Assembly (NCBI RefSeq): GCF_900106535.1
Contig: NZ_FNOH01000004.1
Location: forward strand, 124,001-188,000
Source of the DNA: Myxococcus xanthus
Lineage (GTDB): Bacteria; Myxococcota; Myxococcia; Myxococcales; Myxococcaceae
Length of the DNA stretch: 64,000 nt
Direction: 5' to 3'
Below, piece after piece: positions 40,403-45,853 of the stretch. The first letter of the stretch is position 1. The number at the start of each line of letters is the position of its first letter. The position numbers and the translations under genes were made by a program. A model generated the notes under the pieces. The model worked only from the letters and a program-made list of their open reading frames with translations. It made no database searches and had not been told where the DNA came from.

Positions 40403-40443
40403 CAGGGGAACTCCCGCCTGTCACTGAAGCGCGGGATTGGAGC

Positions 40444-40473
40444 ACGCTAGTCTGTCCGACGAAGAAGCGTCAA
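40444..40473 (-). promoter_or_regulatory. Candidate sigma-70 type promoter of the Che operon
   Basis: Minus strand -35 TTGACG (40473-40468, 5 of 6 consensus) and -10 TAGCGT (40449-40444, keeping T1, A2, T6) are 18 nt apart. Transcription would begin about 35 nt before the first cheW. Same form as the tetR promoter in this window. Confidence 0.55.
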
Positions 40474-40646
40474 TGCGGGCTAACCGGCATTCACTCTCAC
40501 ACGATCGGCGAGTGATGGCGGCAACGGAAGGCATCAGACGTGCTGGATCGGACAGCCCACTGGTGCGGAGCGCTCGGCAGGTATGGTTTGATGAAGTGCG
40601 GCGACACTTCTGGAGAACCGATGTTGCTTGCAGTCTGGGGCTACGA

Positions 40647-42704
40647 ATGATCAAGGGCGACTCGCCGAATCCCGAGGCACCCACTGGAACGGGCGCGGAT
40701 CCTCTCATCGGGCGGAATCTGAACGGCCGCTTCAGCATCCTGGAACCGTTGGGCATCGGGGGCATGGGCAAGGTCTACCGGGCCCTACAGGCGCCGCTCG
40801 AGCGCGTGGTGGCGCTCAAGGTACTCAACCCCAGCTTCCCCAGCAGCCGGGACCCTGGCTTCCAGAAGCGCTTCCTGCGTGAGGCGTCGCTGACGTCCAA
40901 GCTGCGCCATCCCAACACCGTCACCGTCATCGACTACGGGCAGACGGACGACGGCATCTTCTACATCGCCATGGAGTACCTGGACGGCCGGACGCTGGCC
41001 CAGGTGCTGGGGCAGGTCGGCCCGCTGGCGTGGTCTCGCGCCATCGCCATCACCCAGCAGATCTGCCGCTCGCTGCGCGAGGCGCACAGCCAGGGCATCG
41101 TCCACCGCGACCTGAAGCCGGCCAACATCATGCTCCTCAACGAGCAGGATCAGGACCTGGTCAAGGTGCTGGACTTCGGCCTGGTGAAGTCGGTGGCGGC
41201 GCCCCAGGAGGGGCAACTCTCTCCTGAAATCACCCAGAACGGCACGTTCCTGGGCTCGCCGCAGTACATGGCGCCTGAGCAGGCGCGCAATGCCACCGAC
41301 GCGCGCAGCGACGTGTACTCGCTGGGCATCGTGCTCTTCCAGATGCTGATGGGGCGTCCGCCGTTCATCGCGCGCGACCACATCGAGCTCATCTTCGCCC
41401 ACTACAAGGAAGCCCCACCCACCTTCCAGCAGGTGCGGCCGGACCTCCACATCCCGCCGGAAATCGAGGCGGTGGTCCGCCGCTGCCTGGAGAAGGATCC
41501 GGCGCGGCGCTACCAGACAATGGACGAGCTGCTGGAGGGCCTGCGCGAAGCGAGCATGTCCGCGGGCGGCAACAGCGGCATCTTCAAGCGGCCCGGCGGC
41601 GCGACGACGACGGGCCCCTACCCGTCCCCCACGCTGTTCTCCAACGTGGGCAACAACACCGAATCCGGTGACACGCTGGCGGTGGACATCAGCGTGGAGG
41701 TGCCCCGGGACGTCAAGCGCGCCCGGCAGCGCACGCTGCTCACGGGTGGCCTGGGAGGCCTCGTGGTGGCGGGCCTCATCGCGGGCGGCGCGGTATTCTT
41801 CATGTCGAACAAGGAAGCGGCACCACCGGCCCCCGCGCCCCAGGCGGAGGCCCCGGCGCCTGTCGCCGCCGCACCCGCCGCGGAGCCGGCCGCCGAACCC
41901 GCTGCCGCCGCGAACGCGGGCAAGGTCCGCTTCAAGCTCATGAGCCAGCCCTCCGGCGCCCGCGTCTTCTACCGGGGCAAGGAGCGAGGCGTCACCCCCT
42001 TCACCCTGGAGATTCCGTCGGGACAGGATGGCTCCGTCACGGTGGAGCTGACCTTCGCGCTGGAGGGCTACCAGATGGAGACCGTCGTCACGGGCGGTAC
42101 CGGCGAGGTGGTGCTGTCGCAGAAGCTGCAGAAGCGCCGGGGCGGCGCCGGCGGCAGCCGGCACGTCGAGGTGGCCTCCGTGAGCGCGGATGAGACGGCG
42201 GAGGAAGTCGAGCCGGTGGCCACGCCGGGCGGCATGTCCGCGCCGGTGATGCTCGCCCCCACGGCCTCGCCCGCCACGGAGCTCCCTGTCGCGGCGGCCG
42301 TCGGTGGCGCCACGGCCGCGGCAGCCGACGCGGCTCCGGCCAAGGGCTCGGCGACCGGGCTCGCGCTGCCGGTCCTTCCCACCGCGGCGGTGGCCTCCGC
42401 GCGTGGCGACGTGCTCCCCTACAACGAGGACATGCCTCGCCCGGAGATGGTCGACCAGGGCAAGGACATCATCTACACGCGCGAAGCGATGGCCGCGAAG
42501 TCGAGCGGCGTGATGATTGTCCGCTGCACCATCACCCAGCAGGGCCGCGTGGAGAAGTGCCGGATCATCAAGTCCGTGGCCCACATGGAGCGCGCGGTGC
42601 TCGATGCCCTCACGTCCCGGACCTACAAGCCCATCGTCTACAAGGGCTACCCGGTGAACGTGGACTACACCTTCAGCATGCGCCTGGTGGCACCGCGCCG
42701 CTGA
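40647..42704 (+). CDS. Membrane Ser/Thr protein kinase fused to PEGA and TonB C-terminal-like domains
   Basis: 685 aa from the ATG at 40647 (GGGG 6 nt upstream); the open frame runs on to 40437 but without kinase sequence. Kinase domain about 28-295: glycine loop GIGGMGKVYRA, Lys58 in VALKVL, HRDLKPANIML with Asp155, D176-F-G, and APEQA. One TM helix is at about 362-386. A PEGA-like repeat follows (about 426-490: SGARVFYRGKERGVTPFTLE), an Ala/Pro stretch, then a TonB-C-like module (about 605-685: GVMIVRCTITQQGRVEKCRI, ALTSRTYKPIVYKGYPV). The extracytoplasmic half could read or pull envelope components. Confidence 0.88.
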   Translation: MIKGDSPNPEAPTGTGADPLIGRNLNGRFSILEPLGIGGMGKVYRALQAPLERVVALKVLNPSFPSSRDPGFQKRFLREASLTSKLRHPNTVTVIDYGQTDDGIFYIAMEYLDGRTLAQVLGQVGPLAWSRAIAITQQICRSLREAHSQGIVHRDLKPANIMLLNEQDQDLVKVLDFGLVKSVAAPQEGQLSPEITQNGTFLGSPQYMAPEQARNATDARSDVYSLGIVLFQMLMGRPPFIARDHIELIFAHYKEAPPTFQQVRPDLHIPPEIEAVVRRCLEKDPARRYQTMDELLEGLREASMSAGGNSGIFKRPGGATTTGPYPSPTLFSNVGNNTESGDTLAVDISVEVPRDVKRARQRTLLTGGLGGLVVAGLIAGGAVFFMSNKEAAPPAPAPQAEAPAPVAAAPAAEPAAEPAAAANAGKVRFKLMSQPSGARVFYRGKERGVTPFTLEIPSGQDGSVTVELTFALEGYQMETVVTGGTGEVVLSQKLQKRRGGAGGSRHVEVASVSADETAEEVEPVATPGGMSAPVMLAPTASPATELPVAAAVGGATAAAADAAPAKGSATGLALPVLPTAAVASARGDVLPYNEDMPRPEMVDQGKDIIYTREAMAAKSSGVMIVRCTITQQGRVEKCRIIKSVAHMERAVLDALTSRTYKPIVYKGYPVNVDYTFSMRLVAPRR

Positions 42705-42727: not shown

Positions 42728-42754
42728 CCGGACCCAGCGCACATCAGGGTCCGG
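42728..42754. terminator. Possible bidirectional terminator hairpin
   Basis: CCGGACCC (42728-42735) and GGGTCCGG (42747-42754) form a perfect 8-bp stem with an 11-nt loop between the convergent kinase and HAD genes, overlapping the HAD 3' end. There is no T-tract, so termination strength is doubtful. Confidence 0.35.
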
Positions 42755-43463
42755 TAGAGGGCACCACGGGAGGCGCGGGAGGAACGGCCGGCACATCGCC
42801 GCCGGGCGGCACGCCCCAGTCCACCACCGGCCAGCCCCGCTTCCGGGCGTGGCGCCGCAGCCGGTGGTCCGGGTGGACGGCCACGGGCCGCCCCACCACC
42901 TCCATCACCGACAGGTCCGAATACGAATCGGTGTAGAAGGCGCATGCCGAAAGTGCCACGCCCGCCTCGCGCACATAGGCCTCGGCACAGACGCGCTTGC
43001 CCTCGCCGAAGCAGATGGTGCCCAGGGCGCGTCCGGTGTGGAGGCCCGCGCCATCGACCTCGAAGCGGTTGCACAGCACCGCGTCCAGTCCCAGCTCCCG
43101 CGCCACCAGCTCCGACAGGTAGCCCGTGGACGACGTCAGCAGGACGAGCCGCTCCCCGGCACGCCGGTGCGCGTCCAGCACGGCCCAGGCCCCGGGCCGA
43201 TAGAGCGGCCGCACCTGTTCCTCGTAGAACACGGCGGTGCGCTCCTGGAGCGGCCTCGCGGGCGTACCGGCGAGCTGGGCAATCGCGCGCGCGACGGCGT
43301 CCTGCATGGACACGAAGCCCAGGTGGTAGCGCGCAATCCAGAGGCTGGCGCGCAGCGCCTGGAAGCGGGAGATGTGCCCCAGCTCGAGCTCGCGGCGAAT
43401 CCACAGCGAGCCCGAGTTGGCGGCGATGAGCGTCTTGTCCAGGTCAAAGAATGCGACGGCCAC
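42744..43463 (-). CDS. HAD-IB family phosphatase (SerB-like)
   Basis: 239 aa from the GTG at 43463 (AGAGG 7 nt upstream); the longer frame to 43523 overlaps the matrixin gene and is not needed. Motif I VAVAFFDLDKTLIAANS, motif II LTSSTGYLSEL, and motif IV YTDSYSDLSVMEVVG, with a short helical cap, are those of HAD subfamily IB (phosphoserine phosphatase-like). The C-terminus is Pro-rich. It follows the second matrixin gene by 10 nt and is the last gene of that operon. Substrate unknown. Confidence 0.86.
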   Translation of the reverse strand: MAVAFFDLDKTLIAANSGSLWIRRELELGHISRFQALRASLWIARYHLGFVSMQDAVARAIAQLAGTPARPLQERTAVFYEEQVRPLYRPGAWAVLDAHRRAGERLVLLTSSTGYLSELVARELGLDAVLCNRFEVDGAGLHTGRALGTICFGEGKRVCAEAYVREAGVALSACAFYTDSYSDLSVMEVVGRPVAVHPDHRLRRHARKRGWPVVDWGVPPGGDVPAVPPAPPVVPSTGP

Positions 43464-43473
43464 GCCAGGACCT

Positions 43474-44418
43474 CTAATCCCGCCGGAGGGATGCCGCAGC
43501 ACGGACCGCACGCCGCCGCACACGCGTCAGGACGAGCGCGGCCAGCCCCAACGCCACCGGTCCCGGCGCCGCCGCGCAGCCGCTGCCCCGGCCGTCCGCC
43601 TTCAACGCAAACCCCGCCCCCTCCCGCACGAAGCACTGGGTGGGCGGCAGGTGACGCGGGTAGATGTCACAGAACCCGGCGGCCGACCCCGGGTCGATGA
43701 CACGCTTGCGCGTCTCCCCCGGCGGCGCGGTGGCCTCCATCGTGGCGCCCGGGACGAAGACATGGTCCAGGCCCACCACGTGGCCAATCTCATGCGTCAT
43801 GGTGTTCTGGATGTCCGTGGCCACGCAGTCCACCGAGGGCTCGCCTTCACACACCGGTGAGTCCACCGTGGTGAAGAGGAAGCCGTAGCCCCGTGCCGGC
43901 TGGGACGCGTTCAGCTCGATGTCCGAGTCCAACACCCGCCCGTCCCGATAGGAGAACGTGGACGTGGTGAGGCCGATGGTCCCAGGCGGATGCTCCCAGC
44001 ACTGGTAGACGTTGCCGCACGTCTCTTCGGTCCAGCACGCATCATCCGCCGGGGCAACCTCGTGGCACGACGTCTCCCGGAACGTGATGATGTTGTAGTT
44101 GTCCCGGGGACGCGTCTCGTCGTAGCCCACGGCGATGGGCGCTCGCCAGTCCTCGCCCCGGGTGAACCGGTAGTCGCTGCACCCGTCGGAGATGTTCCGC
44201 CACGAGTCGAAGGACGCCTCGATGGCCGCCACCTCGGAGTCTCCAGGCGTGCGCGCGCTGCCCGCCGCATCTAGGTGGTAGACATACTCACGCACCGGCC
44301 ACACCAGGCACAGCGGGTGCCTGGGCACCACGGTGCGGCGGTAGGACGGCTCCTCCTCCATCTGCGCGTGAGCGGAGGTGGCCAGGCACGCGGCCGCGAG
44401 CGCCAGCGCCTTCCTCAC
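43474..44418 (-). CDS. Matrixin-family metalloprotease with MYXO-CTERM anchor (copy 2)
   Basis: 314 aa from a GTG overlapping the stop of the preceding matrixin (GTGA). There is a signal peptide (ALALAAACLATSAHAQ) and a metzincin zinc motif H-E-I-G-H-V-V-G-L-D-H followed by ATMEATAPPGE (Met-turn). Many paired cysteines are present. The C-terminus GSGCAAAPGPVALGLAALVL followed by an Arg cluster is a MYXO-CTERM sorting signal, implying surface anchoring after processing. It probably cleaves extracellular protein. Clear paralogue of the neighbour, with the same cysteine layout. Confidence 0.88.
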   Translation of the reverse strand: MRKALALAAACLATSAHAQMEEEPSYRRTVVPRHPLCLVWPVREYVYHLDAAGSARTPGDSEVAAIEASFDSWRNISDGCSDYRFTRGEDWRAPIAVGYDETRPRDNYNIITFRETSCHEVAPADDACWTEETCGNVYQCWEHPPGTIGLTTSTFSYRDGRVLDSDIELNASQPARGYGFLFTTVDSPVCEGEPSVDCVATDIQNTMTHEIGHVVGLDHVFVPGATMEATAPPGETRKRVIDPGSAAGFCDIYPRHLPPTQCFVREGAGFALKADGRGSGCAAAPGPVALGLAALVLTRVRRRAVRAAASLRRD

Positions 44419-45302
44419 CGGACCGCCTCCTCGCGACGGCGGCGGCGCGCCAGCCACAGCGACCAGACGGCCACCAGCGACAGCGCTCCACCCGGCCCCG
44501 CCGCGGAGCAGCCTCCAGCCTTGGGCCCCAGTTCGATGGACGTCACCGGGTGGAGGCACGACTGGCTGGCCTGCCCCTGGGGGTAGGCGTCACAGACAAA
44601 GCCGCGCGAGCCCGAGTCCACCACGCGCTTGGACACCTCTCCCGGCGGCGCGCTGGGGTTCATGGTGGAGCCGGTGGCGCGCGTGTGGTCCAGACCGATG
44701 AGGTGGCCGACCTCGTGCGTGGCGGTGTTCTGCACGTCGGTGGCCACGCAGTGGGTCGTCACCGGCGGGAAGCATGTGCCGCCGTTCGCCGTCGTGAAGG
44801 AGAAGCGCGCCGCGTTGAAGGAGATGTCCGAGTCGTAGATGATGCCCGAGCGCTCGTCGTACGTGGTGAGGGTGATGGCGATGGTGTTGTCGTCGTCATC
44901 CCAGCAGTCATGTGTGTTGGCACACGTGTCGTCGGCCCAGCACGCATCGGTCGCGGGCACTACGGAGTTGCAGTCCCGGGTCCGGAACAGCACCAGGTTG
45001 GTATTGGTTCCCTGGCGCCGGTAGCCCACCTCGCGTTCGTCCACGCGCGGGCCTTCCACCAACGTGAGGTTGCCGCACTCGGCGAAAATGTCCTGCCAGC
45101 TCTGGAAGGAGGCGCGAATCGCGTCGAACTCGGAGTCGCCCGCCGTGTCCGGGTTGCCGTAGGTGCTCTGGTTCCAGACGACGCGATTGGACGTCCAGTA
45201 GAGGCACTGCGTGCGCGTGTCACCCGCATCGACACGGCTGCGGACGTAGGGGTCCACCTGGCCCAGGGTCAGGGCCAGCATCAGGGGCGCGAGCGGCATC
45301 AC
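44415..45302 (-). CDS. Matrixin-family metalloprotease with MYXO-CTERM anchor (copy 1)
   Basis: 295 aa. GTG (45302) and ATG (45299) starts both overlap the upstream stop; GGGGAG lies upstream. A short signal peptide precedes conserved segments shared with copy 2: AGDSEFDAIRASFQSWQDI, ATDACWADDTCANTHDCW and the zinc motif H-E-V-G-H-L-I-G-L-D-H with STMNPSAPPGE as Met-turn. The C-terminus, GGCSAAGPGGALSLVAVWSL plus an Arg-rich end, is a MYXO-CTERM signal. An Asp cluster (CWDDDDNT) may bind Ca2+. Confidence 0.88.
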   Translation of the reverse strand: MMPLAPLMLALTLGQVDPYVRSRVDAGDTRTQCLYWTSNRVVWNQSTYGNPDTAGDSEFDAIRASFQSWQDIFAECGNLTLVEGPRVDEREVGYRRQGTNTNLVLFRTRDCNSVVPATDACWADDTCANTHDCWDDDDNTIAITLTTYDERSGIIYDSDISFNAARFSFTTANGGTCFPPVTTHCVATDVQNTATHEVGHLIGLDHTRATGSTMNPSAPPGEVSKRVVDSGSRGFVCDAYPQGQASQSCLHPVTSIELGPKAGGCSAAGPGGALSLVAVWSLWLARRRRREEAVR

Positions 45303-45853
45303 GGCGTCTGCTCCCCAAGGGCTTCACGGATGGCGGCCTTCAGCTCCACCAGCGTCATGGACTGGAGCGCGGACGCGGCCGGCTTTCGGGTGACGGGGTC
45401 CAACAGTTGCGACTCGGTGGGCTCCGGGACGGCCAGCGCCGTCTTTCCCTCACGCTTCACCTGGAACTTCCCCTGCGCCATGTCGGAGACGCGGAAGGCA
45501 CGGGGGCCGCGCTTCTGCAGGAAGACCACCACCTCCTCGCCCGGCGTGAAGGACGCCAGGCCGTGCACCACCTGGCCAATGTCCCCCATGCGGCCCCCGG
45601 GCTGGGTGACGAGCACCGTGCTCCCAGGCTGGCCCTTGAGCGACTCCGTCACCTGGATTTCGACGTCGGTGAGGATGCGCATCTTGTCGCCGCTCCAGCG
45701 GCTCTCCACGCGCCGGACGACACCGTGGACCACGGTGTCCGCGCCTACCGCGAGCCCGGACAGGTCCACGCGGAGCTGGGTGGTGGCGGTCGCGGGCACG
45801 CCCACCAGGAGGACAGCCAGGAGCAACGTGCGAACTACCTGACGAATCGACAT
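45299..45853 (-). CDS. Exported hypothetical protein, first gene of the matrixin operon
   Basis: 184 aa with GGGAG 6 nt before the ATG. A signal peptide (LLLAVLLVGVPATATT) is followed by one beta-rich domain (about 28-135: GADTVVHGVVRRVESRW, DVEIQVTESLKGQPGSTVLV, FTPGEEVVVFLQKRG). The OB-like strand pattern is seen in small exported proteins but I cannot name a family with certainty. Its stop overlaps the start of matrixin copy 1. A partner, inhibitor or chaperone of the proteases is conceivable from context only. Confidence 0.7.
   Translation of the reverse strand: MSIRQVVRTLLLAVLLVGVPATATTQLRVDLSGLAVGADTVVHGVVRRVESRWSGDKMRILTDVEIQVTESLKGQPGSTVLVTQPGGRMGDIGQVVHGLASFTPGEEVVVFLQKRGPRAFRVSDMAQGKFQVKREGKTALAVPEPTESQLLDPVTRKPAASALQSMTLVELKAAIREALGEQTP

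Follow-up and report, generated by a model that had tools for sequence, protein, structure and literature searches.

Within the window analysed here (a 64,000-nucleotide stretch of Myxococcus xanthus, positions 124,001 to 188,000 of contig NZ_FNOH01000004.1, assembly GCF_900106535.1), four closely packed genes on the minus strand encode a small, putatively exported protein (gene 1), two matrixin-type metalloproteases (matrixins A and B) and a phosphatase of the HAD-IB family. The locus raises the question of what gene 1, for which a first-pass annotation had left the choice between inhibitor, chaperone and substrate, does for its protease neighbours. Its predicted fold, shared with the tissue inhibitors of metalloproteinases (TIMPs) and other NTR domains, and its near-obligate pairing with matrixins favour the first of these roles. 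TIMPs inhibit the matrixins of animals, and we consider it probable, from the predicted structure, that gene 1 is a cognate TIMP-like inhibitor of the matrixins of its operon.

Gene 1 has a signal-peptide-like start, contains no cysteine and matched no family of Pfam or NCBIfam at E ≤ 5. An AlphaFold2 model built from 41 relatives reached a mean predicted local distance difference test score (pLDDT) of 90.0 and a predicted template modelling score (pTM) of 0.84, with residues 1-4 below pLDDT 50. When this model was compared with the PDB by Foldseek, chains in complexes being assigned from title and length, the 19 best rows comprised four agrin NtA, twelve TIMP-1 or TIMP-2 and three other NTR chains (PCOLCE1 and two of meteorin); the best E-value, 5.7e-4, belonged to agrin NtA ('structurally related to N-TIMP-1'). 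The best VIA match was N-TIMP-3 of the TACE complex (Z 10.9, root-mean-square deviation (rmsd) 2.8, 115 aligned residues, model residues 3-161), tied by agrin NtA at Z 10.9 over 106 aligned residues. Because of these Foldseek and VIA rows the predicted fold is assigned to the NTR type with TIMPs among its best matches, a shared fold that by itself shows no function.

Searches at the sequence level returned leads that were not retained. A single-sequence search of solved structures gave only DR_A0006 (E 0.53) and an Integrator chain, and gene 1 profiles gave only single-strand binding proteins, at E 0.07 or worse. Among 82 members of the gene 1 family, scattered single-member Pfam matches (agrin NtA, 0.0027 at best, DUF4131 and TOBE) are leads only, DUF3969 was matched by one member (1.6e-4) and TIMP was not among the families matched at E ≤ 0.05. 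That gene 1 might be a lipoprotein or a MYXO-CTERM protein was ruled out, since a protein without cysteine has no lipobox.

To what extent is gene 1 tied to matrixins? A pairwise search of 195 Myxococcota genomes found relatives of gene 1 in 179, that of the window being one of these; of the 149 good-quality genomes, 141 have one. At the first loci, all of which were fetched by similarity to gene 1, a matrixin adjoined it in 69 of 69 cases. Over all fetched loci, 142 non-redundant, distinct gene 1 domains were retained; a matrixin domain on the same strand starts within 1.5 kb downstream of 130 of them, and the motif HExxHxxGxxH is intact in 126 of these 130 partners. The first-pass annotation had asked whether the genes would prove scattered, or the zinc motifs lost, in other genomes, and what these counts reveal is a surviving core of protease and gene 1. 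Among the other copies, four have a matrixin open reading frame (ORF) ending directly upstream (L110, L119, L123 and L124), three are joined to the C-terminal end of a matrixin (L043, L165 and L166) and two lie at contig ends (L135 and L150). The genome of the window (9.26 Mb) has nine PF00413 matches at E ≤ 0.01, and by our arithmetic a random 8-kb stretch holds such a match in roughly one case in 100. Besides the operon matrixins this genome has seven M10-like genes; for six of them the flanking 1.5 kb was inspected, and it contains no gene 1.

The pairing was also examined in reverse, in 30 chosen genomes of which 17 have gene 1 and 13 belong to the 16 lacking it by pairwise search. When these were searched with profiles, matrixins were matched 45 times (E ≤ 1e-6) and gene 1 35 times. 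Gene 1 was found on the same strand within 2.2 kb of 39 of the 45 matrixin matches, and of 31 of the 32 that scored E ≤ 1e-20 (two of these being pieces of one ORF). Read from the other side, 32 of the 35 gene 1 matches have a matrixin match, while two of the remaining three adjoin a weakly scored HExxHxxGxxH ORF and one lies at a contig end. Every one of the 18 genomes in which gene 1 occurs also has matrixins; ten of the 12 without it have none, and the last two have weak matches only.

Beyond the Myxococcota, a scan of named genome contigs, in which 80 of 129 relatives were kept, found gene 1 relatives under the labels Acidobacteria, Verrucomicrobia, Planctomycetota, Bdellovibrionales, Bacteroidetes and Bacillota, for the most part in metagenome-assembled records. 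Eight of nine proteases neighbouring gene 1 or fused to it in these records pass Peptidase_M10, and the ninth (L146) falls just under the cut-off (23.4 against 24 bits). This distribution bears on the proposal that gene 1 is a substrate of the matrixins. A shared operon and export route would suit a substrate, but gene 1 co-occurs with diverged matrixins in several of these phylum-labelled records and is also found fused to them, and its core is a compact predicted domain; we find this role very improbable. A record labelled Comamonas sp. KCTC 72670 (L076, BNCN01000003.1) carries a gene 1 that is 91% identical to that of the window, with two matrixins and the HAD gene, and is probably a mislabelled myxobacterial record. 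A search of plasmids with gene 1 gave six weak places, the best at E 0.3 and none covering 80%.

The two proteases themselves belong to a recognised family. Matrixins A and B match Pfam Peptidase_M10 (PF00413) with 32.9 and 34.3 bits (cut-off 24) and NCBIfam NF041905, a model for myxosortase-dependent metalloproteases, with 389.3 and 374.9 bits (curated cut-off 250), and are 39.8% identical over 261 residues. Both sequences keep the zinc motif, as the first-pass annotation had noted, together with the Met-turn; in our matrixin alignment (A6) the invariance of the zinc motif is by construction, the rows having been filtered for it, whereas the Met was not filtered for. NF041938, which describes inactivated MYXO-CTERM metalloproteases, matches both below its cut-off. 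The tail of matrixin A passes TIGR03382 (18.7 bits, cut-off 15.85) and scores 15.6 bits with TIGR03901, under the cut-off of 20. That of matrixin B has the GC, the hydrophobic stretch and the RRR without a separate MYXO-CTERM model match at E ≤ 5, so that of the two tails reported by the annotation one is backed by a model and the other is MYXO-CTERM-like in its sequence. In passages of PMC11980579, MYXO-CTERM proteins are cleaved by myxosortase, and the model published there has the invariant Cys lipidated and the type II system exporting these proteins to the surface. The family models and this published route support the idea, put forward in the annotation, that the operon would encode a surface protease unit; the results do not bear on its further suggestion of a link to predation or matrix turnover.

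How would such proteases be kept harmless on their way to the surface? The M10 match of matrixin B begins at residue 47, corresponding to profile position 9, and its signal peptide is expected to extend to about residue 18. The catalytic domain would thus be preceded by only some 20 residues of exported protein, too few for a prodomain of the matrix metalloproteinase (MMP) type; a short karilysin-type propeptide could still be present. Without an MMP-type prodomain the matrixins need another guard before surface display, and gene 1 may be the guard that keeps them latent.

In several relatives the two partners are part of one polypeptide. Seven distinct ORFs consist of a signal peptide, the gene 1 domain, a linker of about 50 residues, a matrixin and MYXO-CTERM (L061/L102, L063, L064/L103 and L161-L164), and a longer fusion, L146, carries a sorting tail of the type IX secretion system (T9SS, Por-type). 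In another six distinct ORFs the order is reversed and the matrixin leads (L043/L095, L165, L166, L181, L182 and L183); here a MYXO-CTERM-like tail is directly followed by a second hydrophobic stretch ending in small-x-small, and then by gene 1. This arrangement of a tail and a second signal-peptide-like stretch in mid-ORF suggests a polyprotein cut at two membrane-proximal sites. Inspection by eye places a signal-peptidase-like site ahead of the gene 1 domain in 14 of 14 fused ORFs, and the domain seems, from these sequences, to keep a processed and free N-terminus in fusions of both orders.

The seven N-terminal fusions, which place the gene 1 domain exactly at the position of a prodomain, raise the possibility that gene 1 is a foldase, or a detached prodomain acting in trans, for the folding or type II secretion of the matrixins, any inhibition being at most a side effect. 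Its place as the first gene of the operon and the short stretch ahead of the matrixin catalytic domain would agree with such a function, and it is established that prodomains commonly act as both chaperones and inhibitors. However, in the six reverse-order ORFs the domain follows the matrixin and is separated from it by the MYXO-CTERM tail and a signal-peptide-like stretch of its own, and the predicted fold is that of known matrixin inhibitors and not of known foldases. We judge a foldase unlikely, and return to the TIMP-like inhibitor.

A processed N-terminus is of particular interest for such an inhibitor. According to passages of PMC3679795, the N-terminal peptide and the Met66-Cys70 loop of TIMPs bind the protease cleft, with the amino and carbonyl groups of Cys1 binding the zinc and a Ser or Thr at residue 2 filling S1'. 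The first mature residue of the 142 distinct gene 1 copies is predicted to be Thr in 105, Ser in 18 and Ala in 17; among 72 cluster representatives these numbers are 44, 13 and 13, so that 57 of the 72 begin with Thr or Ser, compared to 20 of 71 other putative secreted ORFs (Thr 5, Ser 15, Ala 4), a background drawn by a crude regular expression over ORFs and not by a signal-peptide predictor. Moreover, a PGG stretch at mature residues 62-64 is among the best conserved parts of the family, and from its similar position in the chain we infer that it is the counterpart of the TIMP 66-70 loop.

These features lead to a possible course of events. The gene 1 protein would be secreted and would bind the active-site cleft of both operon matrixins, inhibiting them during periplasmic folding and passage to the cell surface, and the processed amino group of Thr24 would meet the catalytic zinc as does Cys1 of TIMPs. 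The N-terminal zinc contact, drawn by analogy, is put forward tentatively and with less confidence than inhibition as such. In the AlphaFold2 model of a fused protein the matrixin half is readily recognised (karilysin, Z 15.8, rmsd 3.2, 155 aligned residues), and the first 10 residues have a mean pLDDT of 90 with a short strand at 2-4, whereas in the model of gene 1 alone they are disordered, with a mean of 63; this ordering was not counted as docking because the sequences differ and the pTM of the fused model was 0.51.

The NTR-type fold could also serve a protein that does not inhibit at all. Agrin NtA, the top Foldseek match, is a laminin-binding NTR domain, and gene 1 might similarly direct the protease to polymers of the matrix or of prey, as a subunit for targeting, anchoring or substrate presentation. 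The role of such a subunit would be unaffected by a degenerate zinc motif, as is found in 4 of the 130 partners. On the other hand, the matrixins already carry their own surface tail, and the conserved Thr or Ser exactly at the predicted mature end would stay unexplained. This makes a purely targeting role rather improbable.

Several observations weigh against the TIMP-like inhibitor and should be set beside the evidence for it. The NTR domains of complement C3, C4 and C5 score nearly as well in VIA (Z 8.2-10.3), and the NTR fold serves many other roles. PF00965 (TIMP) has no match in the genome of the window at E ≤ 1, and profiles A1 and A7, searched against PDB sequences, recovered neither TIMP nor potempin chains at E-values of 10 or below. 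As gene 1 has no cysteine, the Cys1-Cys70 clamp of TIMPs is absent. The fused-protein model, at the pTM given above, contains no confident two-domain arrangement. As for the genetic pairing, the four partners without a full HExxHxxGxxH (L068, L114, L128 and L146) nevertheless keep gene 1, three of the 142 copies have no matrixin in the neighbouring DNA (L126 798-1406, L137 3863-4483 and L115 3818-4702), and the strongest exception in the reverse test is a matrixin with E 8.6e-63 that lacks gene 1 (genome G057, contig C104). In three of the four degenerate partners the third zinc ligand is changed (L068 HEFGHTLGLDE, L114 HEIGHFCGFGE, L128 HELGHVIGLAD).

Comparison with known protease-inhibitor pairs helps to place gene 1. 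The closest bacterial precedent is potempin A with karilysin of Tannerella forsythia, where a small exported protein is likewise encoded directly before a matrixin; potempin A reportedly is a five-stranded OB-fold. The titles of PDB entries 8b2q and 8b2n describe it as a matrix-metallopeptidase inhibitor bound to karilysin and MMP-12. According to passages of PMC7296668, potempins are lipoproteins whose genes lie immediately ahead of those of their proteases. Gene 1 shares the gene order, in the window and in the 130 of 142 copies, but differs in its lack of cysteine with a site of the signal peptidase I type, in the absence of any sequence match to potempins up to E 10, in that one gene here serves two matrixins, and in its fusions and wide spread. 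Potempin chains were not among the 50 Foldseek and VIA matches listed for gene 1, an absence that excludes nothing. With the N-terminal domain of TIMPs, gene 1 has in common the predicted fold over the whole inhibitory domain, the protease family with which it is paired and which TIMPs target, and a mature N-terminus rich in Ser and Thr; it differs from TIMPs in showing no sequence similarity to them in these searches, in having no cysteines and no TIMP C-terminal domain, and in being bacterial and co-encoded with the protease. In Pseudomonas, the gene of the periplasmic inhibitor AprI lies beside that of the metzincin serralysin and the mature N-terminal Ser of AprI reaches the zinc; AprI has a lipocalin-like barrel and not an OB-fold, and its protease is of another family.

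With potempin A, an inhibitor encoded next to the bacterial matrixin that it blocks is already on record, and gene 1 would therefore not be of a wholly new kind. The proteases are known as a family, and the pair is catalogued, as the name of NF041905 refers to the MXAN_2677/MXAN_2678 family and implies neighbouring genes; this model covers the proteases only, and no NCBIfam model matched gene 1. What appears to be new is the family to which gene 1 belongs, together with its predicted fold, its association with matrixins and the fusions; none of these, nor any TIMP-like partner of bacterial matrixins, was found in the open-licence literature, subscription papers lying mostly outside that search.

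We then asked how far the complete four-gene arrangement is conserved, using distinct relatives whose downstream sequence extends for 3.6 kb or more, binned by identity to gene 1. Copies at least 55% identical are followed by two matrixins in 18 of 18 cases and by the HAD gene in 15 of 18, and for this reason the arrangement is more than chance. At 40-55% identity, at least one matrixin is present in 39 of 44, two in 12 and the HAD gene in one; below 40%, the corresponding numbers are 15, 2 and 1 of 18. The core unit is thus gene 1 with a matrixin, the protease pair and the HAD gene being traits of closer relatives. The phosphatase, which the first-pass annotation had counted as a member of the unit, was accordingly rejected as part of the core, being confined to the closest relatives.

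Coordinates and translations (Table 1) bear out the four-gene layout that had been described, with two 4-nt overlaps, between gene 1 and matrixin A (45299-45302; 1 nt if matrixin A begins at the ATG at 45299) and between matrixins A and B (44415-44418), and a 10-nt gap between matrixin B and the HAD gene (43464-43473). A search of the operon for promoters gave no promoter-like site, and one terminator-like site was found where 0.9 are expected by chance. Convergent with the operon, at 40437-42704 (+) of the window, lies a Ser/Thr kinase gene (PF00069, 174.7 bits) whose product has a C-terminal TonB_C domain (PF03544, 43.7 bits).

Table 1. Features of the operon in window coordinates, and mid-ORF tails in the reverse-order fusions.
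Feature	Position	Strand	Length and basis
Gene 1, predicted secreted, cysteine-free TIMP/NTR-like OB-fold protein, proposed matrixin inhibitor	45299..45853	-	184 aa; translation, predicted model
Gene 1 predicted signal peptide, residues 1-23, end A-T-A	45785..45853	-	sequence and family alignment at cleavage site
Gene 1 predicted mature N-terminus Thr24-Thr25, proposed reactive end	45779..45784	-	family alignment
Matrixin A, M10 metalloprotease with MYXO-CTERM tail	44415..45302	-	295 aa; PF00413, NF041905
Matrixin A zinc motif HEVGHLIGLDH	44685..44717	-	sequence
Matrixin A MYXO-CTERM sorting domain, residues 264-289	44436..44513	-	TIGR03382
Matrixin B, M10 metalloprotease, paralogue of A	43474..44418	-	314 aa; PF00413, NF041905
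Matrixin B zinc motif HEIGHVVGLDH	43762..43794	-	sequence
Matrixin B MYXO-CTERM-like tail (GC, hydrophobic stretch, RRR)	43510..43581	-	sequence and alignment with relatives
HAD-IB family phosphatase, accessory gene	42744..43463	-	239 aa; TIGR01490 115.2 bits, cut-off 98.3
Mid-ORF MYXO-CTERM-like tails	L043 7437-8834, L165 128-1555, L166 2911-4752		
Mid-ORF MYXO-CTERM-like tails	L181 1839-3308, L182 2171-3391, L183 980-3742		

In its widest form our proposal, which goes further than inhibition and is offered as a possibility with somewhat less than even chances, is that bacteria have a counterpart of the MMP-TIMP system: a widespread, unnamed family of TIMP fold in which an N-terminal Thr or Ser made by signal peptidase, and not a disulfide-clamped Cys1, would chelate the zinc of the partner, the free end being kept even in polyprotein fusions. 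If this is true, it would account for the safety of prodomain-less matrixins until they are displayed at the surface, and a family that is without a Pfam or NCBIfam model and is present in most Myxococcota genomes examined would gain a function. The protease-inhibitor pairs of the animal extracellular matrix would then have a counterpart in social, matrix-building bacteria, open to simple genetics, which would raise the question of whether the TIMP fold reached the control of matrixins once or more than once.

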